Made by a program: the position numbers and the translations under genes
In this document: piece by piece, positions 35,838 through 56,626 of the stretch
How positions within the stretch are numbered: the stretch's first letter is position 1
How the letters are laid out: each line of letters opens with the position of its first letter
Notes under the pieces: generated by a model
The model's input: only the letters and a program-made list of their open reading frames with translations
What the model was told of the DNA's origin: nothing
Databases searched by the model: none
From: Streptomyces bottropensis ATCC 25435
GTDB lineage: Bacteria; Actinomycetota; Actinomycetes; Streptomycetales; Streptomycetaceae
Assembly (NCBI RefSeq): GCF_000383595.1
Contig: NZ_KB911581.1
Span: 2,920,265-2,984,264 of the forward strand
Reading direction: 5' to 3'
DNA length: 64,000 nucleotides

Positions 35838-37124
35838 ATGGGACAGCCGCAGCAGCCCGACCAGGCCGAGGCGGAGGAGTCAGGAAGGCCCCGGCCCGGG
35901 GGAGGGGTCTGGCCCGCCGGGCACGCCGGGGGGCTCGGCGCGCCGCCGCTGCGCGTCGGCATGGTCGGCTACGCCTTCATGGGGGCCGCCCACTCCCAGG
36001 GCTGGCGCACGGCGGGCCGGGTCTTCGAACTGCCGCTCAGTCCCGTGCTGGCCGCCGTGTGCGGGCGGGACGCCGACGCGGTGCGGACCATGGCGGACCG
36101 GCACGGGTGGGCGTCGACGGAGACCGACTGGCGGGAGCTGATCGCCCGGGACGACATCGACCTGGTCGACATCTGCACCCCCGGCGACAGTCATGCCGAG
36201 ATCGCCCTCGCCGCTCTCGCCGCGGGCAAGCACGTGCTCTGCGAGAAACCCCTCGCCAACACGGTCGCGGAGGCCGAGGCGATGGCGGCGGCGGCCGAAG
36301 AGGCATACTCGCGTGGCCAGTTGGCCATGGTCGGCTTCAACTACCGTCGCGTACCCGCCACCGCGCTCGCCCGCCGTATGGTCGCCGAGGGCCGGCTGGG
36401 AGCCCTGCGGCACGTGCGGGTGACGTACCTCCAGGACTGGCTCGTCGACCCGGAGTTCCCTCTGACCTGGCGCCTGCGCAAGGAGTCGGCCGGCTCCGGG
36501 GCGCTCGGCGACCTCGGCGCCCACATCGTCGACCTCGCGCAGTACGTGGCCGGCGAGCCGGTGGTCGGCGTGTCCGCGCTGATGGAGACCTTCGTCCGCG
36601 AACGTCCCCTGCCCGCGGGCGCCTCCGCGGGCCTCGCGTCCACCGGCGGCACGGCGGGCAGGGGCGCGGTCACCGTCGACGACACGGCCCTGTTCACCGG
36701 CCGCCTCGCCTCCGGCGCCGTCGCTTTCTTCGAGGCCACCCGCTTCGCCACCGGCCGCAAGAACGCCCTGCGCATCGAACTCAACGGCGAGCGCGGCTCG
36801 TTGGCCTTCGACCTGGAGCGCCTCAACGAACTCGCCTACCACGACCACACCGAACCCGCCGCCCACGCCGGGTTCCGCCGCATCCTCGTCACCGAGCCCG
36901 ACCACCCCTACCTGGACGCCTGGTGGCCGCCGGGCCACGGCCTCGGCTACGAGCACACCTTCGTCCACCAGGCCCGTGACCTGGTCCACGCCGTCGCGGC
37001 GGGCCACCGGCCCGAGCCGTCCTTCGCCGACGGGCTCCAGGTGCAGCGCGTGCTCGCGGCGGTCGAGGAGAGCGCCGAGAAGAACTCCGTCTACACCCCG
37101 ACCCACACCCCCACCACGGTCTGA
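35838..37124 (+). CDS. Gfo/Idh/MocA family oxidoreductase
   Basis: 428 residues. A 35-residue Pro/Gly-rich leader precedes the NAD(P) Rossmann fold LRVGMVGYAFMGAAHSQGW. The hallmark EKPL is in GKHVLCEKPLANTV (about residue 138) and the substrate-side motif is GDLGAHIVDLAQY. A loop rich in Gly and Ala (AGASAGLASTGGTAGRGAV) interrupts the C-terminal domain. Enzymes of this family oxidise or epimerise sugars and inositols. Its place between the importer and a sugar-phosphate epimerase suggests it works on the imported sugar or polyol, perhaps making a keto-sugar. Confidence 0.92.
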   Translation: MGQPQQPDQAEAEESGRPRPGGGVWPAGHAGGLGAPPLRVGMVGYAFMGAAHSQGWRTAGRVFELPLSPVLAAVCGRDADAVRTMADRHGWASTETDWRELIARDDIDLVDICTPGDSHAEIALAALAAGKHVLCEKPLANTVAEAEAMAAAAEEAYSRGQLAMVGFNYRRVPATALARRMVAEGRLGALRHVRVTYLQDWLVDPEFPLTWRLRKESAGSGALGDLGAHIVDLAQYVAGEPVVGVSALMETFVRERPLPAGASAGLASTGGTAGRGAVTVDDTALFTGRLASGAVAFFEATRFATGRKNALRIELNGERGSLAFDLERLNELAYHDHTEPAAHAGFRRILVTEPDHPYLDAWWPPGHGLGYEHTFVHQARDLVHAVAAGHRPEPSFADGLQVQRVLAAVEESAEKNSVYTPTHTPTTV

Positions 37125-37136
37125 GGAGACCCGGAC

Positions 37137-38141
37137 ATGCCGCGCGACTTCACGCTGTTCACCGGCCAGTGGGCCGACCTGCCCCTCGAAGAGGTCTGCC
37201 GCCTCGCCCGCGACTTCGGCTACGACGGTCTCGAACTCGCCTGCTGGGGCGACCACTTCGAGGTCGACAAGGCGCTCGCCGACCCGTCCTACCTGGACTC
37301 CCGGCACCAGCTCCTGGAGAAGTACGGCCTGAAGTGCTGGGCCGTCTCCAACCACCTCGTGGGGCAGGCCGTGTGCGACGCCATCATCGACGAGCGCCAC
37401 CGCGCCATCCTGCCCGCTCGCATCTGGGGCGACGGCGAGCCCGAGGGCGTACGCCGGCGGGCCGCCACCGAGATGGCCGACACCGCGCGGGCGGCGGCCG
37501 CCCTCGGCGTCGACACCGTCATCGGTTTCACCGGCTCCGCCATCTGGCACCTGGTCGCCATGTTCCCGCCCGCCCCCGAGTCGATGATCGAGCGCGGCTA
37601 CGACGACTTCGCGGCGCGCTGGAACCCGATCCTCGACGTCTTCGACGCCGAGGGCGTGCGCTTCGCCCACGAGGTCCACCCCAGCGAGATCGCCTACGAC
37701 TACTGGACGACCCAGCGAGCCCTCGAAGCCGTCGACCGCCGCCCGGCGTTCGGCCTGAACTTCGACCCCTCGCACTTCGTGTGGCAGGACCTCGACCCGG
37801 TCGGCTTCCTGTGGGACTTCCGCGACCGGATCTACCACGTGGACTGCAAGGAGGCCCGCAAGCGCCTCGACGGCCGCAACGGCCGCCTCGGCTCGCACCT
37901 GCCCTGGGGCGACCCCCGGCGCGGCTGGGACTTCGTCTCGGCGGGCCACGGCGACGTCCCCTGGGAGGACGTCTTCCGGATGCTCCGCTCGATCGACTAC
38001 CGGGGACCGATCTCCGTCGAGTGGGAGGACGCCGGCATGGACCGGCTCCAGGGCGCCCCCGAGGCCCTGACCCGCCTCAAGGCGTTCGACTTCGAACCGC
38101 CGTCGGCCGCCTTCGACGCGGCGTTCGGCGGCAACGACTAG
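37137..38141 (+). CDS. Sugar phosphate isomerase/epimerase (TIM barrel, AP-endonuclease-2 fold)
   Basis: A 334-residue TIM-barrel protein. Metal-binding acidic and His residues are visible at the expected strand ends: [36 protein letters not shown] and [12 protein letters not shown]. It starts 13 bases after the oxidoreductase, so both belong to the importer operon, and the two together could interconvert keto-sugars. No signal peptide. The same family appears twice more downstream, at 43551 and 48692. Confidence 0.92.
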
Positions 38142-38168
38142 GCCCGGCGCACCACAGGGCCACCTGTT

Positions 38169-38191
38169 GACCGGGCCCTCACGGCCCGGTC
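38169..38191 (+). terminator. Terminator-like hairpin after the epimerase gene
   Basis: GACCGGGCC and GGCCCGGTC form a perfect 9-bp stem with a 5-base loop, 28 bases past the stop. It may end the importer operon or only reduce read-through into the secreted-enzyme genes that follow. Confidence 0.55.
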
Positions 38192-38275
38192 GTGTCTCCG
38201 GGGTGACGGCGCACCCCGGCGTACCGCACACACCCGTACACCTCCGTACGACCAGCCCCTCTCTGGAGGCATTTC

Positions 38276-40786
38276 GTGCACCCGTACGACGACAACAGAC
38301 ACCCCACCAGCCCCTTCGGGCGCCGCCGAGTGCGCGGGCCCATCGCCCTGCTCAGCGGTCTGCTGCTCGCCGGTGCCTCGCTCTCGCTGACCGCGCCCGC
38401 CGCGGGCGCGGCCGACGCCCAGAAGGCAGGCGCCCCGAAGACGGGCGCCGCCGCGGCCGAGGACTTCCAGCAGGTCACCCTCGCCAAGGGCGAACCGGAG
38501 GTCGGCGAGCCCATGTCGCTGGCCGTCCTCCCGGACCGCTCGGTCCTGCACACCTCGCGCGACGGTGAACTGCGGCTGACCGACGCCGCGGGCAACACCA
38601 GCCTCGCCGGCAAGCTCGACGTGTACGCGCACGACGAGGAGGGCCTGCAGGGCATCGGAGTCGACCCGGACTTCGCCGACAACCGCTTCATCTACCTCTA
38701 CTACGCGCCCCCGTTGAACACCCCGGCCGGTGACGCCCCCGAGACCGGTACGGCCGCCGACTTCGCGCCCTTCGACGGCGTCAACCGGCTCTCCCGCTTC
38801 GTCCTGAAGACCGACGGCACGCTCGACAAGGCCAGCGAGAAGAAGGTCCTCGACGTCCCCGCCTCCCGGGGCATCTGCTGCCATGTCGGCGGCGACATCG
38901 ACTTCGACGCGGCGGGCAACCTGTACCTGTCGACGGGCGACGACAGCAACCCGTTCCAGTCGGACGGCTTCACCCCCATCGACGAACGCGCCAACCGCAA
39001 CCCCGCCTTCGACGCCCAGCGCACCTCCGGCAACACCAACGACCTGCGCGGCAAGATCCTGCGCATCAAGGTCGGCGCCGACGGCTCCTACACCATCCCC
39101 GACGGCAACCTCTTCGCCCCGGGCACGGACAGGACCCGCCCCGAGATCTACGCGATGGGCTTTCGCAACCCCTTCCGCTTCAGCGTCGACAAGAAGACCG
39201 GCGTCCTCTACGTCGGTGAGTACGGCCCCGACGCGGGCGCCGCCAGCCCCTCGCGCGGCCCGGCCGGGCAGGTCGAGTTCGCCCGCGTGACCAAGCCGGG
39301 CAACTTCGGCTGGCCGTACTGCACCGGCAAGAACGACGCCTACGTCGACTACGACTTCGCCACCGGCACCTCGGGCGCGGCCTTCGACTGCGCGGCCCCG
39401 AAGAACACCTCGCCGAACAACACCGGCCTGACCGACCTGCCCCCCGCCGAGCCCGCCTGGATCCCCTACAACGGCGCCAGCGTCCCCGACTTCGGCGACG
39501 GCTCCGAGTCACCCATGGGCGGCCCGGTCTACCACTACGACGCCTCGCTCGACTCCCCGGTGAAGTTCCCCGAGGCCTACGACGGCGACTTCTTCGCCGG
39601 TGAGTTCGGCCGCCGCTGGATCAAGCGCATCACCAGCGACGGCGACGGCACCGTGCGGTCCATCAGCGACGTGCCCTGGACCGGCACCCAGATCATGGAC
39701 ATGGCCTTCGGCCCGGACGGCGCGCTGTACGTCCTCGACTACGGCATCTCCTGGTTCGGCGGTGACGAGCACTCCGCCCTCTACCGCATCGAGAACGCCA
39801 CCGACGGCCACTCCCCGGTCGCCGCCGCGTCGGCCGACCGCACCTCGGGCCAGGCGCGACTGCGGGTCCGCTTCTCCTCAGAGGGCACCAGCGACCAGGA
39901 CGGCGACGCCCTGACCTACAGCTGGGACTTCGGCGACGGCGGCACCTCCACGGCCGCCAACCCCCGGTACACCTACCGGACGAACGGCACCTACACCGCG
40001 ACCGTGACCGCCAAGGACAGCACCGGCCGCACCGGCAGCGCGAGTGTGCGGATCGTGGTCGGCAACACCGCGCCCGAGGTCGAGCTGCGACTGCCCGAGG
40101 ACGGGCAGCTGTTCGCGTTCGGTGACGCCGTGCCGTTCAGGGTGAAGGTGAGCGACAAGGAGGACGGCACCCCCATCGACTGCGCCAAGGTCAAGGTCAC
40201 CTTCGTCCTCGGCCACGACAGCCACGGCCACCCGGTGACCTCCGCCAACGGCTGCACCGGCACCATCCAGACCAGCGCCGACGGCGGCCACGACGAGAAC
40301 GCCAACATCTTCGGGGTGTTCGACGCCGAGTACACCGACGGCGGAGGCGGCGGCCAGGCCCCGCTGACCACCCACGACCAGAACGTCGTCCAGCCCACCC
40401 ACCGCCAGGCCGAGCACTACGGCGACTCCTCGGGCATCGCGGTCCAGTCGAAGGACACCGCACACGGCGGCAAGACCGTCGGCAACATCGACGACGGGGA
40501 CTGGATCTCCTTCGAGCCGTACGTCCTGTCCGACGCCGAGAAGATCACCGCACGTGTCTCCTCAGGCGGCGCCGGCGGCACGCTGGAGGTCCGCGCCGGC
40601 TCGCCGGCCGGCCGTCTCCTCGGCAGCGCCACCGTGCCGGTGACCGGCGGCTGGGACACCTTCCAGGACGTCACGGCCGACCTGGCCAGGGGCCCGCGCG
40701 GCAGCACCACGCTCTACCTGGTCTTCAAGGGGAGCGACTCAGGTGGCCTGTTCGACGTGGACGACTTCACCTTCACGAAGCGGTGA
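38276..40786 (+). CDS. Secreted PQQ-type sugar dehydrogenase-like protein with PKD and CBM6-like domains
   Basis: 836 residues, exported by a Sec-type signal (RRRVRGPIALLSGLLLAGASLSL, cut near AGAAD, residue 46). A six-bladed glucose/sorbosone dehydrogenase propeller spans about residues 60-500 (EGLQGIGVDPDF, GGDIDFDAAGNLYLSTGDD, YAMGFRNPFRFSVD, VLYVGEYGPDAG). A PKD domain follows (DALTYSWDFGDGGTSTAANPRYTY) and a C-terminal CBM6-like beta domain (QAEHYGDSSGIAVQ to FDVDDFTFTKR). It probably oxidises a free sugar or glycan end outside the cell. GTG start after GGAGG. The next gene, with a ThuA and a DUF1080 domain, starts ten bases on, a common partnership in glycan-using bacteria. Confidence 0.88.
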   Translation: MHPYDDNRHPTSPFGRRRVRGPIALLSGLLLAGASLSLTAPAAGAADAQKAGAPKTGAAAAEDFQQVTLAKGEPEVGEPMSLAVLPDRSVLHTSRDGELRLTDAAGNTSLAGKLDVYAHDEEGLQGIGVDPDFADNRFIYLYYAPPLNTPAGDAPETGTAADFAPFDGVNRLSRFVLKTDGTLDKASEKKVLDVPASRGICCHVGGDIDFDAAGNLYLSTGDDSNPFQSDGFTPIDERANRNPAFDAQRTSGNTNDLRGKILRIKVGADGSYTIPDGNLFAPGTDRTRPEIYAMGFRNPFRFSVDKKTGVLYVGEYGPDAGAASPSRGPAGQVEFARVTKPGNFGWPYCTGKNDAYVDYDFATGTSGAAFDCAAPKNTSPNNTGLTDLPPAEPAWIPYNGASVPDFGDGSESPMGGPVYHYDASLDSPVKFPEAYDGDFFAGEFGRRWIKRITSDGDGTVRSISDVPWTGTQIMDMAFGPDGALYVLDYGISWFGGDEHSALYRIENATDGHSPVAAASADRTSGQARLRVRFSSEGTSDQDGDALTYSWDFGDGGTSTAANPRYTYRTNGTYTATVTAKDSTGRTGSASVRIVVGNTAPEVELRLPEDGQLFAFGDAVPFRVKVSDKEDGTPIDCAKVKVTFVLGHDSHGHPVTSANGCTGTIQTSADGGHDENANIFGVFDAEYTDGGGGGQAPLTTHDQNVVQPTHRQAEHYGDSSGIAVQSKDTAHGGKTVGNIDDGDWISFEPYVLSDAEKITARVSSGGAGGTLEVRAGSPAGRLLGSATVPVTGGWDTFQDVTADLARGPRGSTTLYLVFKGSDSGGLFDVDDFTFTKR

Positions 40787-40795
40787 GGGGGCACC

Positions 40796-42181
40796 ATGCC
40801 GACGAACCGACGACTGCTGACCGCACTGGCCGGCGCCGCCCTGCTGATCGGAGGCGTGTCGGGACCGGCCGTGTCCGATGAGGCGGGCCGCTCCGGGGGT
40901 CACGAGGACGAACGCCGGGTGCTGGTCTTCTCCAAGACGGCAGGCTTCCGCCACGACTCGATCCCCGAGGGCGTCACGGCCGTACGGGAACTGGGCGCGG
41001 CCCACGGCTTCGCGGTCGACGCCACGGAGGACGCCGGCGCCTTCACCGCCCGCAACCTCGGGCGCTACGACGCCGTGGTGTTCCTCTCGACGACGGGTGA
41101 CGTCCTCGACCCGGCCCAACAGGGCGCGTTCGAGCGGTACATCAAAGGCGGGGGCGCCTACGTAGGCGTCCACGCCGCCGCCGACACCGAGTACGACTGG
41201 GCCTTCTACGGCGGACTCGCGGGCGCGTACTTCCAGTCGCACCCCGCGATCCAGCCCGCCACGGTCGACGTCGAGGACCACGCCCACCCGGCCACCGCCG
41301 GACTGGGCGCGACCTGGAACCGCACGGACGAGTGGTACAACTACCGCTCCAACCCCCGTGAACGGGCCCATGTCCTCGCCTCGCTCGACGAGTCGTCGTA
41401 CAGCGGCGGCACCATGAAAGGCGACCATCCCATCGCCTGGTGCCAGAACTACCAGGGCGGCCGCGCCTTCTACACCGGTGGCGGCCACACCAAGGCGTCC
41501 TTCGCCGAACCCGCCTTCCGGCAGCATCTGCTCGGCGGTATCCGGTGGGCGATCGGCGAGTCCCGCGCCGACTGCCGCCCGGAGAACGGGTACCGGCCGC
41601 TGTTCGACGGAACCTCCCTGGACGGCTGGCGGCAGGCGGGACCCGGCTCGTTCACCCTGTCCGACGACGGCACGATCACGTCGTCCGGCGGGATGGGCAT
41701 GCTCTGGTACGCCGGCCGGAGCTTCGGGTCGTACTCCCTGAAGCTCGACTGGAGGATGTCCGGCGCCTCGGGCGACGACAACTCCGGGGTGTTCGTGGGC
41801 TTCCCGCCCTCGGACGACCCCTGGTCGGCCGTGAACAACGGCTACGAGGTCCAGATCGACGCCACGGACGTATCCGAGAGGACCACCGGGTCCGTCTACG
41901 GCTTCCGGTCCGCCCACATCAGGAAGCGCGACCGCGCCCTGAACCCGCCGGGTGAGTGGAACACGTACGAGATCCGCGTGGAGGGCGAGCGTCTGCGCGT
42001 CTGGCTCAACGGCAAGAAGATCAACGATTTCACCAACACCGATCCGGTACGGAGTCTGCGCGAGGGGCACGTCGGCCTCCAGAACCACGGGGCCGGGGAC
42101 CAGGTGTCCTTCCGTGACGTCCGGATCAAGGAACTGCCCGCACGGGCCGCCGACCGGGCGGACCCGCCGCCGGGCGACTGA
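40796..42181 (+). CDS. Secreted ThuA domain + DUF1080 (3-keto-glycoside hydrolase-like) protein
   Basis: 461 residues with a signal peptide (RRLLTALAGAALLIGGVSGPAVS, about 1-28). Residues 40-260 form a ThuA/trehalose-utilisation domain of glutamine-amidotransferase-like fold: RRVLVFSKTAGFRHDSIPEGV, GGGAYVGVHAAADTEYDW, FQSHPAIQ and GRAFYTGGGHTKASF. Residues about 265-450 are a DUF1080 concanavalin-like domain: YRPLFDGTSLDGWRQ, NSGVFVGFPP, GEWNTYEIRVEGERL and GHVGLQNHGAGDQVSFRDVRI. DUF1080 proteins are now tied to cleavage of 3-keto-glycosides made by dehydrogenases, which would match the neighbouring secreted dehydrogenase and the cytosolic oxidoreductase of this locus. A strong terminator follows. 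Confidence 0.9.
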   Translation: MPTNRRLLTALAGAALLIGGVSGPAVSDEAGRSGGHEDERRVLVFSKTAGFRHDSIPEGVTAVRELGAAHGFAVDATEDAGAFTARNLGRYDAVVFLSTTGDVLDPAQQGAFERYIKGGGAYVGVHAAADTEYDWAFYGGLAGAYFQSHPAIQPATVDVEDHAHPATAGLGATWNRTDEWYNYRSNPRERAHVLASLDESSYSGGTMKGDHPIAWCQNYQGGRAFYTGGGHTKASFAEPAFRQHLLGGIRWAIGESRADCRPENGYRPLFDGTSLDGWRQAGPGSFTLSDDGTITSSGGMGMLWYAGRSFGSYSLKLDWRMSGASGDDNSGVFVGFPPSDDPWSAVNNGYEVQIDATDVSERTTGSVYGFRSAHIRKRDRALNPPGEWNTYEIRVEGERLRVWLNGKKINDFTNTDPVRSLREGHVGLQNHGAGDQVSFRDVRIKELPARAADRADPPPGD

Positions 42182-42306: not shown

Positions 42307-43554
42307 ATGTCCGCGTCCGTGTCCGTCACCCCACCGAGCGTCGGCGTCTGGCTGATCGGAGCACGGGGTTCCGTCGCCACCACCGTCGTCGCGGGCTGCG
42401 CGGCCGTCACGGCGGGCCTGCACGCCCCGACGGGCATGGTCACCGAGACCCCCCTCTTCGCCGGGACGCGCCTTGTGCCCCTGTCCGCCCTCGCCTTCGG
42501 CGGCCACGACACGGTCGACTGCCCCCTGCCCAAACGGGCCGAGGCCCTCGCGGCCGGGGGCGTCCTGCCGCACGGCCTTCCGGCGGCCGTCGCAGCCGAA
42601 CTGGCCGTCGCCGACCGGGAGATCAGGCCCGGCGGCCCCCTCCCGGGCGACACCAGGACCCCCGACGAGCTGATCTCCTCCCACGCCGCCGACATCCAGG
42701 ACTTCGTACGCCGCCGGAACCTGACCCGGGCCGTGGTGGTCAACGTCGCCTCCACGGAACCCGCGCCCACCGGCGCCGCCCTTCCTCCCAGCTCCCTCTA
42801 CGCGGCGGCCGCCCTCCGCGCGGGCTGCCCCTACGTCAACTTCACCCCCTCGACCGGTCTCCACCACCCGCTACTGGCCCCGCTCGCCGTCTCCGCCGGA
42901 CTCCCGTACGCGGGCCGCGACGGCAAGACCGGCCAGACCCTGCTCCGGTCCGTCCTCGGCCCGATGTTCGCCCAGCGGGCCCTGGCCGTCCGGGCCTGGT
43001 CCGGCACCAACCTCCTCGGCGGGGGTGACGGCGCCGCCCTCGCCGACCCGGCCGCCGCGGCTGCCAAGAACGCCGGCAAGGAACGCGTCCTGACCGACAG
43101 CCTGGGCGCCACCCCCGAGGGCGAGACCCATATCGACGACGTTCCCGCCCTCGGCGACTGGAAGACCGCCTGGGACCACATCGCCTTCGACGGTTTCCTC
43201 GGCACCCGGATGGTCCTCCAGACCACCTGGCAGGGCTGCGACTCCGCCCTCGCCGCCCCTCTGGTCCTGGACCTCGCCCGCCTCCTGGCCGGGGCCCACG
43301 CGGCGGGCCTCACCGGGCCCCTCGCCGAGCTGGGCTTCTACTTCAAGGACCCGGTGGGGGACGGCCCGACGGCCCTGGGGGAGCAGTACGCGGCGCTGGC
43401 CGGGTTCGCAGAGCGGCTGCGGCCGGGGGCGAAACCCCGGACGCGGCCCCTGCGCGACCCGGAAGCCGGGCCGCAAGCCCCCGGGCCGGAAGCCGACCCG
43501 GAGGCCGAGCCGGAACCGGGGCGTGCGGCGCAACCGCGCGAGGAGACACGATGA
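42307..43554 (+). CDS. Inositol-3-phosphate synthase family protein heading the ebo-like operon
   Basis: 415 residues. An N-terminal NAD-binding glycine-rich segment, GVWLIGARGSVATTVVAG, is followed by NVASTEPAP, GRDGKTGQTLLRSVLGPMFA, GTNLLGGGDGAALADP and the family block GDWKTAWDHIAFDGFLGTRM, then TWQGCDSALAAPLVLDLARL. This matches myo-inositol-1-phosphate synthases, which cyclise a hexose phosphate through NAD-dependent oxidation. The last 45 residues are a Pro/Glu/Ala-rich tail that looks non-conserved, possibly the scar of a lost neighbour. It overlaps the next gene by ATGA. Its product may be a cyclitol building block for the ebo-linked pathway; plain inositol supply is also possible. 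Confidence 0.85.
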   Translation: MSASVSVTPPSVGVWLIGARGSVATTVVAGCAAVTAGLHAPTGMVTETPLFAGTRLVPLSALAFGGHDTVDCPLPKRAEALAAGGVLPHGLPAAVAAELAVADREIRPGGPLPGDTRTPDELISSHAADIQDFVRRRNLTRAVVVNVASTEPAPTGAALPPSSLYAAAALRAGCPYVNFTPSTGLHHPLLAPLAVSAGLPYAGRDGKTGQTLLRSVLGPMFAQRALAVRAWSGTNLLGGGDGAALADPAAAAAKNAGKERVLTDSLGATPEGETHIDDVPALGDWKTAWDHIAFDGFLGTRMVLQTTWQGCDSALAAPLVLDLARLLAGAHAAGLTGPLAELGFYFKDPVGDGPTALGEQYAALAGFAERLRPGAKPRTRPLRDPEAGPQAPGPEADPEAEPEPGRAAQPREETR

Positions 43555-44453
43555 GCCGCCACGACACCCCCCTCTCCTTCGGCTACGGCACCAACGGCCT
43601 CGCCGACCTCCGACTGGACGACGCCCTCGCCCTCCTCGCCGACCTCGGCTACGACGGCGTCGGTCTGACGCTCGACCACATGCACCTCGACCCGCTCGCC
43701 CCCGACCTCGCCGCCCGCACCCGGCGCCTCGCCCGCCGACTGGACGCCCTCGGCCTGACCGTCACCGTGGAGACCGGCGCCCGCTATGTGCTCGACCCGC
43801 GCCGCAAACACGGCCCCACGCTGCTGGACGCCGACCCCGACGACCGTGCCCGCCGGGCCGACCTGCTGCTCCGCGCCATACGGGTCGCCACCGAACTCGG
43901 CGCCCACGCCGTGCACTGCTTCAGCGGCGTCGCCCCGCCCGGCACGGACGAGGACACCGCCTGGAAACGTCTGCCCGACGCGCTCACCCCCGTCCTCGAC
44001 GCCGCCACCGCCGCCGGCGTCCCCCTCGCGATCGAACCCGAACCCGGTCACCTCCTCGCCACGCTCGCCGACTTCCATCGCCTGCGCGAGACCCTCGGGG
44101 ACCCCGCCGCCCTCGGCCTCACCCTGGACATCGGTCACTGCCAGTGCCTCGAACCCCTCCCTCCCGCCGACTGCGTCCGCGCCGCCGCGCCCTGGGTCCG
44201 CCACGTCCAGATCGAGGACATGCGACGCGGCGTCCACGAGCACCTCCCCCTCGGCGAGGGCGAGATCGACTTCCCGTCCGTCCTCGCGGCGCTGGCCGCC
44301 GTCGACCACCGAGCCCTGACCGTCGTCGAACTGCCCCGCCACTCCCACGCCGGCCCGCACTTCGCCGAGCAGTCCCTCGCGTTCCTCGAACGGTCCCTCG
44401 GCCTCCGCCACAGCGCGACCGGCCGCACCATCCTTCCCGGGAGCACCCCGTGA
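43551..44453 (+). CDS. Sugar phosphate isomerase/epimerase (TIM barrel) of the ebo-like operon
   Basis: A 300-residue xylose-isomerase-like TIM barrel. It opens LSFGYGTNGLADLRLDDALALLADLGYDGVGLT. Metal-site residues appear in PLAIEPEPGHLL, LGLTLDIGHCQCLE, VRHVQIEDMRRGVHEHLPLGEGEIDF and TVVELPRHSHAG. It overlaps the genes on both sides by four bases (ATGA and GTGA), so translation of the whole set is coupled. The substrate is unknown, likely a sugar or cyclitol phosphate in the same pathway. Confidence 0.88.
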   Translation: MSRHDTPLSFGYGTNGLADLRLDDALALLADLGYDGVGLTLDHMHLDPLAPDLAARTRRLARRLDALGLTVTVETGARYVLDPRRKHGPTLLDADPDDRARRADLLLRAIRVATELGAHAVHCFSGVAPPGTDEDTAWKRLPDALTPVLDAATAAGVPLAIEPEPGHLLATLADFHRLRETLGDPAALGLTLDIGHCQCLEPLPPADCVRAAAPWVRHVQIEDMRRGVHEHLPLGEGEIDFPSVLAALAAVDHRALTVVELPRHSHAGPHFAEQSLAFLERSLGLRHSATGRTILPGSTP

Positions 44454-45160
44454 TCCACCACCACACCCCGGCCGGACCGACGGCCCACCCGGCGCACACC
44501 GCTCCCGCCGACCTGCACCGCCACCTCGACGCCCACCTCACCGAGGGCGCCCGCACCTGGCTGGCACGGGCGCTCGACGAGGCCGCCGACCATCCGGGCA
44601 CCCATGGCCCCCTCGCCGTCTGGGAGCTGCGCCTCGCCGAGGCCGGCCGGCGCTGCGGCACCGAACACGCCGACGCCGTCCGCGTCCTGATCCTGCACGC
44701 GGCCCGCGCCGACGCCGACGCCCTCACCCGGGTCTACGACCAGGGCACCGCCGACGAACGCAGAGCGGTGCTCCACGCGCTGCCGCACCTCGTGCCCGGC
44801 CCCGAGGCGCTGCACCTCGTCGAGGACGCCCTGCGGACCAACGACACCCGTCTCGTCGCCGCCGCACTCGGCCCGTACGCCGCCCGCCGTCTGGCCCCGC
44901 ACCACTGGCGGCACGCCGTGCTCAAGTGCCTGTTCACCGGTGTGCGCGTCGACGAGATCACCGACCTGGCCCGCCGCTCCCGCGGAGATGGCGAACTCGC
45001 CCGCATGCTCGGCGCCTTCGCCGAGGAACGCACCGCCGCGGGCCGTCCCGTACCCGAGGACCTGCACCGCGTCCTGGCCCTGACCGAGCCCCCACCGGCC
45101 GACGAGCACGACCTCGACAGCGCCCACGGCATCCACGGCACTCACGGCAAGGAGTCCTGA
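44450..45160 (+). CDS. eboA: EboA domain-containing protein
   Basis: 236 residues, all-helical and soluble. Typical EboA features are GARTWLARALDEA at the start, then the repeat-like helices RVLILHAARADADALTRVYDQGTADERRAVLHALPHL and VDEITDLARRSRGDGELARMLGAFAEER. GTG at 44450 overlaps the previous stop as GTGA. EboA has no known enzymatic role. It always travels with the TatD-like EboB and the EboE/EboF genes, as here. The identity rests mostly on this shared order plus the helical pattern, and is fairly good. Confidence 0.78.
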   Translation: MIHHHTPAGPTAHPAHTAPADLHRHLDAHLTEGARTWLARALDEAADHPGTHGPLAVWELRLAEAGRRCGTEHADAVRVLILHAARADADALTRVYDQGTADERRAVLHALPHLVPGPEALHLVEDALRTNDTRLVAAALGPYAARRLAPHHWRHAVLKCLFTGVRVDEITDLARRSRGDGELARMLGAFAEERTAAGRPVPEDLHRVLALTEPPPADEHDLDSAHGIHGTHGKES

Positions 45161-46008
45161 TGCGCATCTTCGACCCCCACATCCACATGACGTCACGCAC
45201 CACCGACGACTACGAGGCGATGCACGAGGCGGGCGTGCGCGCGGTCGTCGAGCCGGCCTTCTGGCTGGGCCAGCCCCGCACGTCGGCCGCCTCCTTCGTC
45301 GACTACTTCGACTCCCTGCTGGGCTGGGAGCCCTTCCGCGCCGCCCAGTACGGCATCGCCCACCACTGCGCCCTCGCCCTCAACCCCAAGGAGGCGAACG
45401 ACCCGCGGTGCACACCGGTGCTAGACCTGCTGCCCCGCTATCTGCTCAAGGACCGGGTCGTCGCCGTCGGAGAGATCGGCTACGACTCCATGACCCCGGC
45501 CGAGGACCACGCACTCGAACACCAGCTGCAACTGGCCGCCGACCACGGCCTGCCCGCCCTCGTCCACACCCCGCACCGGGACAAGCTCGCCGGTCTGCGC
45601 CGCACCCTGGACGCCGTACGGGCCTCCGCCCTGCCCGTCGAGCGGGTGCTGCTCGACCACCTCAACGAGACCACCGTCAAGGAGGCCAGGGACAGCGGCG
45701 CCTGGCTCGGTTTCTCCGTCTACCCGGACACCAAGATGGACGAGGAACGCATGGTCGCCGTCCTCAAGGAGTCCGGCCCGGAGAAAGTCCTCGTCAACTC
45801 CGCCGCCGACTGGGGCAGAAGCGACCCCCTCAAGACCCGCAAGGTCGCGGACGCGCTGCTCGCCGCCGGGTTCGACGAGGACGACACCGACCTCGTGCTG
45901 TGGCGCAACCCCGTCGCCTTCTACGGACTCAGCGGGCGCCTCGCCCTGGACGTCACCGCCACGGACCCCACGCACGAGGGCAACAGCATCCTGCGCGGCG
46001 GTGAGTGA
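45160..46008 (+). CDS. eboB: TatD family metal-dependent hydrolase EboB
   Basis: A 282-residue TIM-barrel hydrolase of the TatD/amidohydrolase type. Metal ligands: His-x-His in FDPHIHMTSR, Glu in VVAVGEIGYDSM, His in PALVHTPHRDK, His in VLLDHLNETT and the late Asp in NSAADWGRSDPLK. The start is ATG at 45160, overlapping the stop of eboA as TGATG with GGAG just before. It was reported as part of the ebo operons of cyanobacteria, Pseudomonas and some eukaryotic algae, where it is needed for an uncharacterised metabolite pathway. The actual substrate is unknown. Confidence 0.85.
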   Translation: MRIFDPHIHMTSRTTDDYEAMHEAGVRAVVEPAFWLGQPRTSAASFVDYFDSLLGWEPFRAAQYGIAHHCALALNPKEANDPRCTPVLDLLPRYLLKDRVVAVGEIGYDSMTPAEDHALEHQLQLAADHGLPALVHTPHRDKLAGLRRTLDAVRASALPVERVLLDHLNETTVKEARDSGAWLGFSVYPDTKMDEERMVAVLKESGPEKVLVNSAADWGRSDPLKTRKVADALLAAGFDEDDTDLVLWRNPVAFYGLSGRLALDVTATDPTHEGNSILRGGE

Positions 46009-46011
46009 CCC

Positions 46012-47181
46012 GTGCGCTTCCGCCACCCCGACGGCTCCACCGTCCACCTCGCCTACTGCACCAACGTGCACCCCGCCGAGACCCTCGACGGCGTCCTCGC
46101 CCAGCTGCGCGACCACTGCGAGCCCGTACGCCGCCGCCTCGGCCGCGACCGCCTCGGCATCGGCCTCTGGCTGGCCAGGGACGCCGCCACGGCCCTGGTG
46201 ACCGACCCGTCCGCCCTGCGCGGCCTGCGCGCCGAACTCGACCGGCGCGGCCTGGAGGTCGTCACCCTCAACGGCTTCCCCTACGAGGGCTTCGGCGCCG
46301 AAGAGGTCAAGTACCGCGTGTACCGGCCCGACTGGGCCGACCCCGAGCGCCTCGACCACACCACCTCCCTCGCCCGTGTCCTCGCCCGGCTGCTCCCCGA
46401 CGACGTGACCGAGGGCACCATCTCCACTCTCCCCCTGGCCTGGCGCACCGCCTACGACGACAGCCGCGCCGCCCGCGCCCACGCCGCCCTGCGCACTCTC
46501 GCCGAACGCCTCGACGCCGTGGCCGAGCTGACCGGCCGCTCCATCCGCGTCGGCCTGGAACCCGAACCCGGCTGCACCGTGGAGACGACCGCCGACGCCA
46601 TCGTCCCGCTGACCGCCCTCGGCCACGACCGCATCGGTGTCTGCGTCGACACCTGCCACCTCGCCACCTCCTTCGAAGACCCGCACACCGCCCTGGACGC
46701 GCTCACCCGAGCCCGCGTCCCCGTCGTCAAATCCCAGCTGTCCGCCGCCCTGCACGCCGAACACCCGCACCTCCCCGAGGTCCGCGAGGCCCTCGCCGCC
46801 TTCGCCGAGCCCCGCTTCCTGCACCAGACCCGCACCCGCTCCGCCGCCGGCCTGCGCGGCACCGACGACCTCGGCGAGGCGCTGGAGGGCGACACCCTGC
46901 CCGACGCCTCCCCCTGGCGCTCCCACTTCCACGTCCCGCTCCACGCGGCCCCCGCCGCACCCCTCACCTCCACGCTCCCGGTCCTCAAGGCCGCCCTCGC
47001 CCACCTCGTCGGCGGCCCCCACCCCCTCACCCGCCATCTGGAGGTCGAGACCTACACCTGGCAGGCCCTGCCACCGGAGCTGCGCCCCGGCACCCGCGCC
47101 CAGCTCGCCGACGGCATCGCCGCCGAACTCGCCCTCGCCCGGGACCTGTTGACGGACCTCGGCCTCAAGGAGCTGCCATGA
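46012..47181 (+). CDS. eboE: EboE-type metabolite traffic protein (xylose-isomerase-like TIM barrel)
   Basis: 389 residues. The opening VHLAYCTNVHPAETLDGVLAQL is the hallmark of EboE. VVTLNGFPYEGFGAEEVKYRVYRPDWADPERLD is another highly conserved stretch. Metal-site residues lie in IRVGLEPEPGCTVET, GVCVDTCHLATSF and HFHVPLHAAP, and it ends with LEVETYTWQALPP. It starts with GTG three bases after the TatD gene and overlaps the next gene by ATGA. EboE proteins are needed for moving scytonemin precursors across the cell in cyanobacteria. Here there are no scytonemin genes, so the metabolite differs. The family call is strong. Confidence 0.88.
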   Translation: MRFRHPDGSTVHLAYCTNVHPAETLDGVLAQLRDHCEPVRRRLGRDRLGIGLWLARDAATALVTDPSALRGLRAELDRRGLEVVTLNGFPYEGFGAEEVKYRVYRPDWADPERLDHTTSLARVLARLLPDDVTEGTISTLPLAWRTAYDDSRAARAHAALRTLAERLDAVAELTGRSIRVGLEPEPGCTVETTADAIVPLTALGHDRIGVCVDTCHLATSFEDPHTALDALTRARVPVVKSQLSAALHAEHPHLPEVREALAAFAEPRFLHQTRTRSAAGLRGTDDLGEALEGDTLPDASPWRSHFHVPLHAAPAAPLTSTLPVLKAALAHLVGGPHPLTRHLEVETYTWQALPPELRPGTRAQLADGIAAELALARDLLTDLGLKELP

Positions 47182-48611
47182 GCCGGGACGACACCGCCCC
47201 GCACCCCGCAACGGCTTCCGCGCCCGCGTCCGGCCCCACCCCTCTCCTCGTCCTGGACGTCGTCGGCCTCACCCCCCGTCTCCTCGACCACATGCCCCAC
47301 CTCAAGGCCCTCGGGCAGTCAGGCTCCCGCGCCCCGCTCGGCACCGTGCTGCCCGCCGTCACCTGTGCCGCCCAGTCCACCTTCCTGACCGGCACGCTCC
47401 CCGCCGAGCACGGCATCGTCGGCAACGGCTGGTACTTCCGCGAACTCGGCGACGTCCTGCTGTGGCGCCAGCACAACGGCCTCGTCGTCGGCGACAAACT
47501 CTGGGACGCCGCCCGGCGCGTCCACCCCGGCTACACGGTCGCCAACATCTGCTGGTGGTACGCCATGGGCGCCGACACCGACTTCACCGTCACCCCCCGT
47601 CCCGTCTACTACTCCGACGGCCGCAAGGAGCCCGACTGCTACACCCGGCCCCCGGCCCTGCACGACGAGCTCACCGACAGGCTCGGCACGTTCCCCCTGT
47701 TCCACTTCTGGGGACCGGGCGCCGACCTCGTCTCCAGCCGCTGGATCATCGACGCGACCCGCCACATCCTCCGCACCCGCCGCCCCGACCTGGCCCTGTG
47801 CTACCTCCCCCACCTCGACTACGACCTGCAGCGCCACGGCCCCGACGACCCGCGCTCCCTGAAGGCGGCCGCCGACCTCGACCGGGCCGTGGCACCCTTG
47901 CTCGACGACGCCCGCGCGCAGGGCCGAACCGTCGTCGCGCTCTCCGAGTACGGCATCACCCGCGCCGACCGCCCCGTCGACATCAACCGCGCCCTGCGCC
48001 GCGCCGGCCTCCTGGAGGTGCACACCCAGGACGGCATGGAGTACCTCGACCCGATGGCCTCACGTGCCTTCGCGGTCGCCGACCACCAGATCGCCCACGT
48101 CTACGTACGCCGCCCCGAGGATATGGACGCCACCAGGGAAGCCCTCGCGGACCTGCCCGGTATCGATCAACTCCTCGACGACGAGGGCAAGAAGGCCCAC
48201 CACCTCGACCATCCGCGCTCCGGCGAACTCGTCGCCGTCGCGGAGCCGGACGCCTGGTTCACGTACTACTACTGGCTCGACGACGACCGTGCGCCCGACT
48301 TCGCGCGCACCGTCGAGATCCATCGCAAACCCGGCTACGACCCGGTCGAGCTGTTCATGGACCCGCTCGACCCGTATGTGAAGCTCAAGGCGGCCACGGC
48401 ACTGGCCCGCAAGAAACTGGGCCTGCGCTACCGCATGGCGGTCGTGCCGCTGGATCCCTCGCCTATTCGCGGCAGCCACGGCCGCCTGCCCACGAGCGAC
48501 GACGACGGTCCGCTCATCATCTGCTCCACCCCCCGAGCCGTCGGCGACCGCGTGGCGGCCACCGATGTGAAAGCACTCCTGCTGCGTCTGGCCGGTCTCC
48601 CCGACCGGTGA
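47178..48611 (+). CDS. eboF: EboF-type alkaline phosphatase superfamily (nucleotide pyrophosphatase-like) protein
   Basis: A 477-residue metallo-phosphoesterase of the nucleotide pyrophosphatase/phosphodiesterase group. LLVLDVVGLTPRLLDHMPHL holds the first metal Asp. LPAVTCAAQSTFLTGTLPAEHGIVGNGWYF carries the nucleophile region (VTCAAQS in place of TTTxxNH). YLPHLDYDLQRHGP and VVALSEYGITRADRP hold further ligands, and AVADHQIAHVYVR follows. It is cytosolic, since no signal is present. It would cut a phosphate or nucleotide ester in the ebo pathway. It overlaps eboE by four bases and is followed, after 80 bases, by a separate Tat-exported epimerase gene. Confidence 0.86.
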   Translation: MSRDDTAPHPATASAPASGPTPLLVLDVVGLTPRLLDHMPHLKALGQSGSRAPLGTVLPAVTCAAQSTFLTGTLPAEHGIVGNGWYFRELGDVLLWRQHNGLVVGDKLWDAARRVHPGYTVANICWWYAMGADTDFTVTPRPVYYSDGRKEPDCYTRPPALHDELTDRLGTFPLFHFWGPGADLVSSRWIIDATRHILRTRRPDLALCYLPHLDYDLQRHGPDDPRSLKAAADLDRAVAPLLDDARAQGRTVVALSEYGITRADRPVDINRALRRAGLLEVHTQDGMEYLDPMASRAFAVADHQIAHVYVRRPEDMDATREALADLPGIDQLLDDEGKKAHHLDHPRSGELVAVAEPDAWFTYYYWLDDDRAPDFARTVEIHRKPGYDPVELFMDPLDPYVKLKAATALARKKLGLRYRMAVVPLDPSPIRGSHGRLPTSDDDGPLIICSTPRAVGDRVAATDVKALLLRLAGLPDR

Positions 48612-49820: not shown

Positions 49821-51209
49821 TCAGGCCGCTTCGTCACCGAGGGGACGGGGGTTGGGAGCGATGTGCCGGTCGCGCGGCCGCCCCGGCGGGTGCAGGAAGA
49901 TCGCCACGAACCCGGCGAACAGCGAGATGGAGCCGGCGAGCACGAAGGCGCCCGCGTAGTCCCAGGCGCCCACGACCACGGCGCCCATACCGGAGCCGAG
50001 CAGACCCGACACCAGCTTGGAGCTGTAGACGAGACCGTAGTTGGAGGCGTTGTTGTTCTCGCCGAAGTAGTCCGCGGTCATCGCCGCGAACATCGGGAAG
50101 ATGGCCCCGCCGCCGAACCCGGAGATGCTGGAGAACACCAGGAAGAGCGGCAGGTTGCCGATGTTGCCGGACCAGAGGATGCCGTACTGGGACAGGCCCA
50201 GCACGATGCAGACGAAGATCAGACACTGCTTGCGGCCGTAGCGGTCGGAGAGCCAGCCGATGACACCGCGGCCGGTACCGTTGACGATCGCCTTCAGCGA
50301 CATGGCGGTGGCCACGATCCCGCCCGCGAAACCGACCTCGTTGCCGAAGGGCACCTGGAAGGCGATGCCGAAGATGTTCACGCCCGAGGTGCACAGGAGG
50401 CAGAACCACATCAGCGCGACGCGGCCCGTCCGCCATGCCTCGCTCGGCGTGTACTGCTTCACGGCCGGCGGGTTCTTCTCCAGCGCGCGTCGCGCGCGCG
50501 GGTCGTCCGGCTTGCGCAGCGGGTCGACCTCGGCGGGCCACCAGTTCTTCGGCGGGTCCTGGAAGAAGTGACCCGCCACGGCGACGACCGCCGCGAGGAA
50601 CAGACCGACGCCGACGAGCACCCACCGGAAGTTCGTCAGGTCCATGAACCCGGTGAAGATGAACACGAACGGCACCGAACCGTAGGCGAACCCGCCGTTC
50701 ACGAAGCCGGTCTTGCCTCCCTTGCGCTCCGGGTACCACTTGCCGACCATGTTCACGCAGGTCGCGTAGACCATGCCGGCGCCCATACCGCTGAACATGC
50801 CGAAGCCGATGTATGCGACGACGACGTGCGGCGCGAACGCCAGGGACAGATAGCCGAGCAGGGTGCCGACGGCGCCCAGCATCATCGCCCAACGGGCCGG
50901 CAGTCTGCCGCTCTCCCGGAGCTTGCCCGCCGGGAAGGCCACCGCGGCCTGGAAGAACACCCACACGCCCAGCATCCAGAAGATGTGCTGGTTGCTCCAG
51001 CTGTGCGCGGTGTGCAGGGTCTCCTCGGCGGACGCGAACGCGTACTCCGCCGAGCTGATGCCCATCATGCCCACCCACGGCAGGATGACCATCCACTTGC
51101 GTTTGCGCCCCATGATGTCCAGGTCGGACTCGCCGATCCGGTACATCCTGCCGCCTGCGTCCGTCACCTCCCGGTAGGGGACGGGTGTGGAGATGTCAGT
51201 TGTTGCCAT
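49821..51209 (-). CDS. OFA family MFS transporter (second oxalate/formate transporter)
   Basis: A 462-residue membrane protein with about twelve spans. It has a long cytosolic N-terminus (YREVTDAGGRMYRIGESDLDIMGRKRKWMV), then WVGMMGISSAEYAFASAEETLHTAHSW. The OFA loop YIGFGMFSGMGAGMVYATCVNMVGKWYPERKGGKTGFVNGGFAYGSV spans the middle, and GWLSDRYGRKQCLIF is a normal MFS loop. ATG at 51209 follows GGAGGG; longer readings to 51359 add a low-complexity leader. It is the last gene of the minus-strand oxalate operon but lies 159 bases after its neighbour, so it may also have its own promoter. No small-subunit gene is seen beside this one, unlike the copy at 18.2 kb. Confidence 0.88.
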   Translation of the reverse strand: MATTDISTPVPYREVTDAGGRMYRIGESDLDIMGRKRKWMVILPWVGMMGISSAEYAFASAEETLHTAHSWSNQHIFWMLGVWVFFQAAVAFPAGKLRESGRLPARWAMMLGAVGTLLGYLSLAFAPHVVVAYIGFGMFSGMGAGMVYATCVNMVGKWYPERKGGKTGFVNGGFAYGSVPFVFIFTGFMDLTNFRWVLVGVGLFLAAVVAVAGHFFQDPPKNWWPAEVDPLRKPDDPRARRALEKNPPAVKQYTPSEAWRTGRVALMWFCLLCTSGVNIFGIAFQVPFGNEVGFAGGIVATAMSLKAIVNGTGRGVIGWLSDRYGRKQCLIFVCIVLGLSQYGILWSGNIGNLPLFLVFSSISGFGGGAIFPMFAAMTADYFGENNNASNYGLVYSSKLVSGLLGSGMGAVVVGAWDYAGAFVLAGSISLFAGFVAIFLHPPGRPRDRHIAPNPRPLGDEAA

Positions 51210-51368
51210 GTCGTTCGAACCCTCCGCGTGGAAGAAGTCTGGCCAGCGCCCCCTGTCCGTGCTTCTCTGCGCCGGGGCCCGCGGTGAGCGGTCGCCGCGG
51301 GCCCCGTGGTTCGGGCCGTCGCTCAGCTCATCGCCACCGCCCCCCGGCGACCGAGCCACCCGGGCCGG

Positions 51369-54773: not shown

Positions 54774-54774
54774 C

Positions 54775-56460: not shown

Positions 56461-56533
56461 GGCGAAGTCCTGTCCCTTCGTAGGGGTTTTCGTGGGTCTT
56501 CGTTGAGCGTCGGAGCGCACTCGCGGTTGATTG

Positions 56534-56557
56534 CATACAGTCGACGAATACTGTATG
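56534..56557. promoter_or_regulatory. GntR-type operator candidate between oxc-like and sucC-like genes
   Basis: CATACAGT (56534-56541) and ACTGTATG (56550-56557) are exact inverted copies around CGACGAAT. The site is 74-97 bases before the oxc-like start and 70-93 before the sucC-like start, so it can control both. It shares GTCGACGAA with the 17.9-kb site, and its CATAC[A/T]GT arms resemble CCATACTG of the other two sites. Confidence 0.6.
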
Positions 56558-56626
56558 AACCTTGTTATCCCGCATCCCATGGATGGTGTCCAGGGGGCGT
56601 GCGGCACTTTTGAGTCAGGAGCCGGA

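Follow-up and report, generated by a model that had tools for sequence, protein, structure and literature searches.

An INO1-headed ebo operon of Streptomyces bottropensis that has lost UbiA, and a second ebo cluster that may supply the prenyl step

The ebo operon and its neighbourhood

The window analysed here is a 64,000-nucleotide stretch of the S. bottropensis ATCC 25435 genome (contig NZ_KB911581.1, positions 2,920,265 to 2,984,264). At 42307-48611 it carries six genes in one tight run on the + strand, in the order INO1, ISO, EboA, EboB, EboE and EboF, where ISO is the name given in this analysis to the TIM-barrel gene at 43551-44453. The features of the operon and of the region upstream of it are as follows.

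30710, upstream of the operon: ROK
32034, upstream of the operon: ABC ATPase
33635, upstream of the operon: permease
34688, upstream of the operon: sugar-binding protein
35838-37124, + strand, upstream sugar gene: Gfo/Idh oxidoreductase
37137-38141, + strand, upstream sugar gene: TIM barrel
38276-40786, + strand, upstream sugar gene: GSDH/CBM6 protein (glucose/sorbosone dehydrogenase-like)
40796-42181, + strand, upstream sugar gene: ThuA/3-keto-disaccharide hydrolase
42307..43554, + strand: INO1-like inositol-phosphate synthase, the head gene (PF07994 115 bits and PF01658 99.5 bits, both above cut-off)
43551..43554, + strand: ATGA overlap of INO1 and ISO, the site of a UbiA match in 62 of 80 fetched relatives
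43551..44453, + strand: ISO, sugar-phosphate isomerase/epimerase-like TIM barrel (PF01261 143 bits; position in relatives)
44450..45160, + strand: EboA (NF035938 EboA_domain 155 bits, cut-off 50)
45160..46008, + strand: EboB, TatD-like hydrolase (TatD PF01026 47.7 bits, cut-off 27)
46012..47181, + strand: EboE (NF035939 equivalog 427 bits, cut-off 250)
47178..48611, + strand: EboF (Phosphodiest PF01663 232 bits, cut-off 23)

Coordinates and family models bear out the earlier sequence-only reading that EboA, EboB, EboE and EboF are present and tightly packed and that the head gene is an inositol-3-phosphate synthase homologue. Its placing of a sugar importer and keto-sugar enzymes upstream agrees with the family calls. 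It did not mention ISO, which is a standard member of the operon in actinobacteria. The sugar genes at 35838..42181, whose order before INO1 is kept in most relatives, are conserved neighbours outside the ebo set. On the narrower NF035937 EboA_family model, EboA did not reach the cut-off (51 bits, cut-off 320), while EboB and EboF were 39-56% and 49-57% identical to their counterparts in five non-actinobacterial ebo loci. All six genes are under purifying selection, with dN/dS values of 0.14-0.58 against four relatives.

Adjacent EboA, EboB, EboE and EboF are shared with the ebo operons of the type described by Yurchenko et al. from eustigmatophytes and bacteria (PMC5133447) and with that of Nostoc (PMC6282210). 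A UbiA-family prenyltransferase belongs to this operon type, as in the actinobacterial version, and a sugar-phosphate cyclising enzyme is found in both the known operons and the window operon. Unlike the known operons, the actinobacterial type has INO1 (mIPS) for EboD and an extra ISO gene; its UbiA belongs to the SCO3242 family (NF045897, named after SCO3242 by NCBIfam) and scores below the EboC cut-off (107-134 against 250 bits), and in the window operon UbiA is missing in cis. Relatives carry it between INO1 and ISO, which here overlap directly.

Measured against known ebo operons, the window operon has EboA, EboB, EboE and EboF and lacks EboC and EboD, while from the actinobacterial order INO1-UbiA-ISO-A-B-E-F only UbiA is missing, the rest being present and in order. 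A tblastn search of the window with two UbiA proteins from relatives gave no significant match (best E 0.22), and tblastn likewise detected no remnant of the gene at the INO1/ISO junction (best E 0.37). Five EboDs, the AroB of the genome and its second DHQ-synthase-like protein, used as queries, gave no match in the window at E 1e-3. These searches confirm the earlier statement that UbiA and EboD are missing; since it had been judged from the window alone, the meaning of this absence is altered by the genome and the relatives.

Loss of UbiA and the second ebo cluster

In a phylum sample of 296 genomes, eight ebo loci were found outside Streptomyces, and all eight have the order INO1-UbiA-ISO-A-B-E-F, which is also annotated on two Streptomyces plasmids. 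In a genus sample of 151 genomes, UbiA adjoins INO1 in 95 of the 105 that bear INO1, the 95 including broken copies. Because UbiA is kept beside INO1 in these outside loci and genus genomes, it is, on the gene orders compared, the usual second gene of the operon and its absence from the window is a secondary loss; the same counts rule out that this operon type never had a prenyltransferase. On the tree of relatives the loss corresponds to eight changes, and the clade of the window is among the losers. By its own terms the sequence-only reading would be refuted by relatives with both UbiA and EboD inside the operon; relatives do carry UbiA there, while EboD was not detected in any of the actinobacterial loci searched for it.

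For the counts below, six of the 18 fetched loci without a UbiA match were set aside as contig ends or unclear cases (L012, L018, L022, L038, L051, L052). The 12 UbiA-less loci kept comprise ten with INO1 and ISO adjacent plus L037 and L044. From the 62 UbiA-bearing loci, 50 were taken for the second-cluster search and 49 (without L054) were searched. Ten INO1 genomes of the genus sample have no adjacent UbiA, five of which were set aside: G082, G152 and G212 as fragments or contig ends, G159 as a contig end and G127 as an odd assembly. Of eleven "far" UbiA pieces in the UbiA-adjacent genomes, six were taken to be the same gene broken at a contig edge, and five weak matches to other UbiA proteins did not enter the count. 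Some genomes belong to both samples (e.g. G199 is the genome of L026).

About 175 kb from the window operon (hereafter cluster 1, like its counterparts in relatives), the same genome carries a second, paralogous ebo cluster, UbiA2-ISO2-A2-B2-E2-F2-P450 (L085), with an FAD oxidoreductase and an IMPase-like gene before it and the cytochrome P450 after it. Unlike the window operon it has a UbiA, and it has no INO1. Identity between the two clusters was 54% for ISO, 41% for EboA, 75% for EboB, 58% for EboE and 68% for EboF. UbiA2 scored 361 bits on NF045897 (cut-off 260) and 107 bits on the EboC model (cut-off 250), and carries the Asp motif NDxxDxxxD. For the NF045897 UbiAs, the next-best models after EboC were geranylgeranylglycerol-phosphate geranylgeranyltransferase or a related prenyltransferase, a similarity that would be in keeping with an enzyme that O-prenylates a polyol phosphate. 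The search for an unlinked UbiA thus ended in a SCO3242-type gene, and the "unlinked lipid step" suggested from the sequence alone fits this finding; the "soluble product" offered beside it gained no support. Three other UbiA-superfamily genes of the genome fall short of NF045897 and were rejected as the missing enzyme; by eye, that of L001 resembles heme O synthase, that of L002 adjoins a UbiD-like gene and that of L004 resembles decaprenyl-phosphate phosphoribosyltransferase. The cluster-1 UbiA of a relative (L005) is only 43% identical to the cluster-2 UbiA, so the two need not act on the same substrate. Genomes G132 and G079 carry cluster 2 but no cluster-type INO1 at all, and cluster 2 can therefore dispense with INO1.

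Loss of UbiA is concentrated in genomes with another copy. A second UbiA was found elsewhere in 11 of 13 UbiA-less cases, and a second cluster in 10 of 49 controls (Fisher p 3.6e-5) or, counted loosely, in 15 of 49 (p 9e-4). In the genus sample the second UbiA was present in 5/5 UbiA-less against 5/95 UbiA-adjacent genomes (p 3.3e-6). An independent-pairs test on the tree, with second UbiA scored by a loose rule (14 of 49), had too few informative pairs and was not significant (median p 0.5). A rough binomial comparison of 6 of 8 loss lineages with 14 of 49 controls gave p 0.009, but some of the lineages were taken from the second sample and extant genomes served as the background. In two of the eight loss lineages (L037/G007 and L044/G008), both draft assemblies, no SCO3242-type UbiA was found anywhere in the genome. 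UbiA was probably lost here because the second operon copy still has one.

Individual genomes add detail to this pattern. In G185 the cluster-1 UbiA has no Asp motif and the cluster-2 copy has it. G014 is a case of reciprocal loss, cluster 1 having lost UbiA and cluster 2 having lost A-B-E-F while keeping UbiA2-ISO2. The cluster-1 EboF is missing or shortened in 5 of 13 UbiA-less but 0 of 52 UbiA-bearing loci (p 1.6e-4), and all five genomes concerned have EboF2 in cluster 2.

These EboF losses could also mean that cluster 1 is a superfluous copy undergoing decay, losing UbiA, then EboF and later the rest, while cluster 2 does all the work. G008, without UbiA, ISO, EboA and most of EboB, would fit such a course, but it also has no second EboE. 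Decay nevertheless appears unlikely: ISO, EboA, EboB and EboE are kept in 13 of 13 UbiA-less loci with a second cluster, the window genes show the dN/dS values given above, and in G014 the loss of A-B-E-F struck cluster 2. INO1 is also always kept in the locus set, but by construction of the search.

Less likely again is that the window operon works without a prenyltransferase and yields a soluble cyclitol, the second cluster being unrelated. This would account for six remaining genes under purifying selection with no UbiA in cis, for the retained INO1-ISO-A-B-E-F of G007, in whose genome no SCO3242-type UbiA was found, and for the low identity between the two UbiA types. It is opposed by the concentration of loss in genomes with another UbiA, the reciprocal loss in G014 and the broken UbiA of G185 beside an intact second copy.

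INO1 in the place of EboD

The best PDB relative of the window INO1 was the Archaeoglobus fulgidus mIPS 1u1i (198 bits, E 2.6e-57). Residues N235, L237, D241, K254, K258, K286, D312 and K347 of the window INO1 correspond to A. fulgidus N255, L257, D261, K274, K278, K306, D332 and K367, and are invariant across 12 aligned cluster INO1s. K278, K367 and N255 are altered in PDB mutant sequences (3qvw, 3qvx, 3qw2) and conserved in the window INO1; L257, D261, K274, K306 and D332 we take to be further active-site positions. With both Pfam domains and these residues the protein belongs to the mIPS family. The A. fulgidus enzyme is not known to lie within an ebo operon.

INO1 was present in 8/8 of the non-Streptomyces actinobacterial ebo loci fetched, in which no EboD match was found, while all five non-actinobacterial ebo loci read lack INO1 and carry a 3-dehydroquinate-synthase gene of the EboD type. 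For this reason INO1 probably replaces EboD across the actinobacteria, and the replacement proposed from this one operon finds support as a phylum-wide pattern. The search for an unlinked EboD was unsuccessful. The genome has two DHQ_synthase matches, AroB (346 bits, cut-off 305) and a second cyclase at 5.48 Mb; the latter was rejected as EboD, being 30-33% identical to five reference EboDs, which are 50-60% identical among themselves and to which AroB is also 34-37% identical. Both EboE genes of the genome lie away from it.

The window INO1 is distinct from the housekeeping copy, which is encoded at another site in the genome. Least probable of the alternatives is that it merely supplies ordinary inositol for mycothiol or phosphoinositides, unrelated to any replacement of EboD: its mIPS family membership, its conserved catalytic residues and the housekeeping need for inositol would agree with this, but a dedicated mycothiol-type INO1 at 8.94 Mb scores 730 bits on the TIGR03450 equivalog (cut-off 638) against 24 bits for the window INO1, and INO1 heads the ebo operon in all the loci outside the genus, where EboD was not found.

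A proposed prenylated-cyclitol pathway and its significance

The reading preferred here, with a probability of roughly 0.6, is that of an actinobacterial INO1-type ebo operon whose UbiA was lost in the clade of the window and which belongs to a prenylated-cyclitol pathway with the prenyl step performed in trans. INO1 for EboD, UbiA as the usual second gene and UbiA2 in cluster 2 are established at the level of sequence, and from them we infer the chemistry, i.e. cyclisation, prenylation and product. INO1 would use NAD to cyclise a sugar phosphate, in the simplest case converting glucose 6-phosphate to inositol 3-phosphate, and the membrane UbiA from cluster 2 would prenylate the cyclitol or its phosphate in trans. 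EboF may remove or hydrolyse a phosphate group, ISO and EboE may rearrange the ring or side chain, and EboA and EboB could build a membrane complex or assist one. The putative product, a prenylated cyclitol, would act as a small lipid or would carry metabolites during export, as has been suggested for Nostoc. Ari2-type INO1 homologues (6k96) show the family to be capable of making other rings, which counts against this reading. So does the only tested EboC-type enzyme, whose preferred reaction is the farnesylation of quinolines, not of cyclitols (PMC9235831).

A wider proposal is more tentative. EboD and INO1, unrelated cyclases, may fill the same ebo slot in different phyla, which would point to a prenylated cyclitol (phosphate) as the hidden core, and the two Streptomyces clusters may form a network with one common prenyl step, in which ISO, EboA, EboB and EboE are cluster-specific and the parts that cluster 1 loses where cluster 2 is present, UbiA and EboF, are shared.

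Many phyla and also algal plastids harbour ebo operons, and in Nostoc scytonemin export depends on them; no product is named in the ebo literature drawn on here. In S. coelicolor, SCO3243 "myo-inositol phosphate synthase" and SCO3242 "putative transferase" (PMC3610822) together with SCO3237 "phosphodiesterase" (PMC8981147) parallel INO1, UbiA and EboF; by gene number and order, SCO3238-3241 would be EboE, EboB, EboA and the isomerase. In contrast to the window operon, SCO3237-SCO3243 keeps UbiA and lies inside the CDA lipopeptide antibiotic cluster, not beside sugar-catabolic genes.

That actinobacteria consistently have INO1 in place of EboD narrows ebo chemistry to something that both enzymes could make, a cyclitol, and offers a cyclase family with well understood biochemistry. 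Lineages that lost UbiA and have a second cluster are natural complementation experiments and show which step should be shared, and the presence of the operon inside the CDA cluster of S. coelicolor makes it testable in a laboratory model.

Gene content of the window operon

Family models identified six closely packed genes on the + strand at 42307-48611. They include the EboA, EboB, EboE and EboF genes named by the sequence-only reading, which had omitted the sugar-phosphate isomerase/epimerase-like gene (ISO) between INO1 and EboA.

Features of the window
35838-42181: sugar genes matched in ebo loci of other families
42307-43554, +: INO1 (NCBIfam/Pfam)
43551-44453, +: ISO, TIM-barrel isomerase (NCBIfam/Pfam)
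44450-45160, +: EboA (domain model 155 bits, cut-off 50)
45160-46008, +: EboB (NCBIfam/Pfam)
46012-47181, +: EboE (equivalog model 427 bits, cut-off 250)
47178-48611, +: EboF (NCBIfam/Pfam)
49821-56886, -: MFS transporter, CoA-ligase, CoA-transferase III, TPP enzyme

EboA fell below the cut-off of a narrower EboA family model (51 vs 320 bits). The reported absence of UbiA and EboD was also confirmed within the 64-kb window, where tblastn gave no UbiA (best E 0.22) and EboD protein probes found no match. The dN/dS values against four relatives ranged from 0.14 to 0.58, the highest being that of EboA, and EboF exceeded 0.25 only against the truncated copy in L058.

By sequence, the window INO1 belongs to the inositol-phosphate synthase family but is divergent: it scored 24 bits where the mycothiol INO1 model has its cut-off at 638, and 198 bits on alignment to 1u1i, the structure of the A. 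fulgidus mIPS. Its residues 161-366 align ungapped with A. fulgidus 181-386, placing N235, K258 and K347 on N255, K278 and K367, which are substituted in PDB mutants 3qw2, 3qvw and 3qvx. L237, D241, K254, K286 and D312, which we take to be catalytic positions, likewise match, and all eight active-site positions are invariant among 12 aligned cluster INO1s. The five-membered-cyclitol-phosphate synthase 6k96 is a weaker relative (41.8 bits), a reminder that the window enzyme could make something other than inositol phosphate. The one further INO1 of the genome, at 8.94 Mb, belongs to the mycothiol class and scores 730 bits on that model.

INO1 in place of EboD

EboE was found in 17 of 296 genomes sampled across the phylum, eight of them outside the genus. 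All eight non-Streptomyces actinobacterial loci have the order INO1-UbiA-ISO-A-B-E-F, the UbiA of L143 being counted from an open frame carrying the NDWADRDLD motif alone. Two annotated Streptomyces plasmids share this order, with UbiA annotated as an SCO3242 family prenyltransferase. Five non-actinobacterial plasmid loci (Azospirillum, Roseivivax, Mycetohabitans, Deinococcus, Ketogulonicigenium), a small sample, all carry UbiA and a 3-dehydroquinate-synthase gene (EboD), and no INO1 match. EboD probes gave no match in the actinobacterial ebo loci tested except a chance-level one (E 8.5e-4) inside the EboE of L139. Since INO1 is present in all eight loci from outside the genus and EboD was not found in them, the exchange belongs to the actinobacterial operon and not just to the window. 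The proposal that INO1 could stand in for EboD is thereby supported, as a general trait of this operon.

The search for an unlinked EboD returned only the two DHQ_synthase proteins of the genome, AroB and a superfamily member (G000:C1:5479633, L089). The latter scored 202 bits on the AroB model (cut-off 305) and is 30-33% identical to EboDs, while five reference EboDs are 50-60% identical among themselves; these values rule it out as AroB or a close EboD. It could be a sedoheptulose-7-phosphate cyclase that serves a different pathway.

No description of an INO1-type ebo operon was found in the open-licence literature. A survey of 148 taxa gives EboD as usual with a few exceptions, and mentions EboA proteins of actinobacteria that carry a fused xylose-isomerase-like domain (PMC5133447); the same pair, ISO and EboA, are neighbouring genes in the loci studied here. 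In the S. coelicolor CDA cluster, SCO3242 and SCO3243 are listed among the genes (PMC3610822) and SCO3237 as a phosphodiesterase (PMC8981147); by numbering, SCO3243 to SCO3237 are seven gene numbers and would fit a seven-gene operon. On a Streptomyces camelliae plasmid (L168 3221-15447), an INO1-type operon is preceded by a gene annotated as ScyD/ScyE family and followed by aromatic prenyltransferase, methyltransferase and multicopper oxidase genes, a neighbourhood reminiscent of the link between ebo and scytonemin.

Loss of UbiA and the second ebo cluster

Among 80 Streptomyces loci retained out of 545 relatives, 62 showed a UbiA match beside INO1. INO1 and ISO were directly adjacent, as in the window, in ten; UbiA, ISO, EboA and most of EboB are gone in L044, a second GSDH-ThuA pair occupies the place of UbiA in L037, and six loci were cut or unclear. 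In the genome of L037 (G007:C252, locus L157), this pair lies between INO1 and ISO. In a separate genus sample, cluster-type INO1 occurred in 105 of 151 genomes, with UbiA at most 3 kb away in 95. In a 66-row tree built from INO1, EboB and EboE, eight changes are needed to explain UbiA absence, and the window groups with five other UbiA-less rows (SH-aLRT support 100). Judged from these sequences, the missing UbiA is a secondary, lineage-specific loss; the lack of a prenyltransferase, correctly noticed in the window, is not inherent to the operon type, as most loci keep UbiA.

An unlinked prenyltransferase was located in a second ebo cluster about 175 kb from the window INO1, at ~2.787-2.795 Mb:

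G000:C1:2784902-2794845 (L085 5903-15846): second ebo cluster with neighbours

Cluster 2 (UbiA2-ISO2-A2-B2-E2-F2-P450) has no INO1. It is flanked by the cytochrome P450 behind and by FAD oxidoreductase and IMPase-like genes in front, and these flanking genes recur in several relatives (L148, L156, L161, L162). UbiA2 scored 361 bits on the SCO3242 model (cut-off 260), fell below the EboC cut-off (107 vs 250 bits), carries the Asp-rich motif and shares 43% identity with the UbiA that lies within the cluster in L005. Two genomes (G132, L147; G079, L148) carry cluster 2 but lack a cluster-type INO1, so that cluster 2 does not need INO1; UbiA2 may act on something other than the cluster-1 substrate.

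An SCO3242-type UbiA was present elsewhere in 11 of 13 UbiA-less genomes (the window genome and 12 of the 80 loci), including G002, whose copy is divided between two contigs with each part below the cut-off; none was found in the draft genomes of G007 and G008, which harbour L037 and L044. Among 49 UbiA-bearing genomes, ten had a cluster-2-type EboE (at least 61% identity) and 14-15 any second cluster (Fisher p 3.6e-5 with 10/49, 9e-4 with 15/49). In the genus sample, which partly overlaps the first and from which unclear rows were set aside, a second UbiA occurred in 5/5 UbiA-less vs 5/95 UbiA-adjacent genomes (p 3.3e-6). Loss in cluster 1 thus goes with the presence of cluster 2; these Fisher tests ignore kinship, and a tree-paired test of UbiA loss against second UbiA was not significant (median p 0.5), with a second UbiA in six of eight loss lineages.

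Single cases are more telling than counts. In G185 the cluster-1 UbiA frame lacks the Asp motif and the cluster-2 copy has it. In G179 the cluster-1 UbiA is broken over frames, possibly by assembly error, and a second INO1-UbiA pair lies elsewhere. G014 has no UbiA in cluster 1, and its cluster 2, in which UbiA2-ISO2 remain, has lost A-B-E-F, leaving as a scar EboA residues 2-35 adjoining the P450 C-terminus. Cluster-1 EboF was lost or truncated in 5/13 UbiA-less loci vs 0/52 UbiA-bearing loci long enough to judge (p 1.6e-4); all five genomes have EboF2 in a full cluster 2. Cluster-1 ISO, A, B and E were kept in 13/13 readable UbiA-less loci with a second cluster (L026 is cut). Most likely, the lost prenyltransferase is covered in trans, although G007 and G008, cluster 2 without INO1 in G132 and G079, and a possibly different substrate of UbiA2 complicate this reading.

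Sugar genes and proposed pathway

Behind the operon, the genes at 49821-56886, whose MFS transporter resembles oxalate/formate antiporters at a score below the cut-off, look like an oxalate-degradation cluster. Upstream, annotation agrees with the sugar importer and keto-sugar enzymes described before. ThuA/3-keto-disaccharide hydrolase and GSDH-like genes also adjoin INO1-type operons in other families (L140, L141, L142, L144, L146); identity between L140 and the window is 61% for GSDH, 68% for ThuA, 76% for the TIM barrel and 68% for Gfo/Idh. This recurrence hints that the operon may be tied functionally to 3-keto-sugar metabolism.

Geranylgeranylglycerol-phosphate geranylgeranyltransferase-type enzymes prenylate a polyol phosphate, and this enzyme or a related prenyltransferase is the best model after EboC for SCO3242-type (NF045897) proteins. 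A cyclitol-isoprenoid product (PMC5133447) and a carrier role (PMC6282210) have been proposed for ebo. The one EboC-type enzyme tested farnesylated quinolines (PMC9235831), which calls for caution on a prenylated cyclitol. The sequences show gene content and order, family membership, conservation at the active-site positions and the pattern of losses; the chemistry is inferred. In the proposed pathway, INO1 would make a cyclitol phosphate that UbiA2 would prenylate in trans; EboF may act on the phosphate, ISO and EboE would modify the sugar or cyclitol part, and EboA and EboB would assist.
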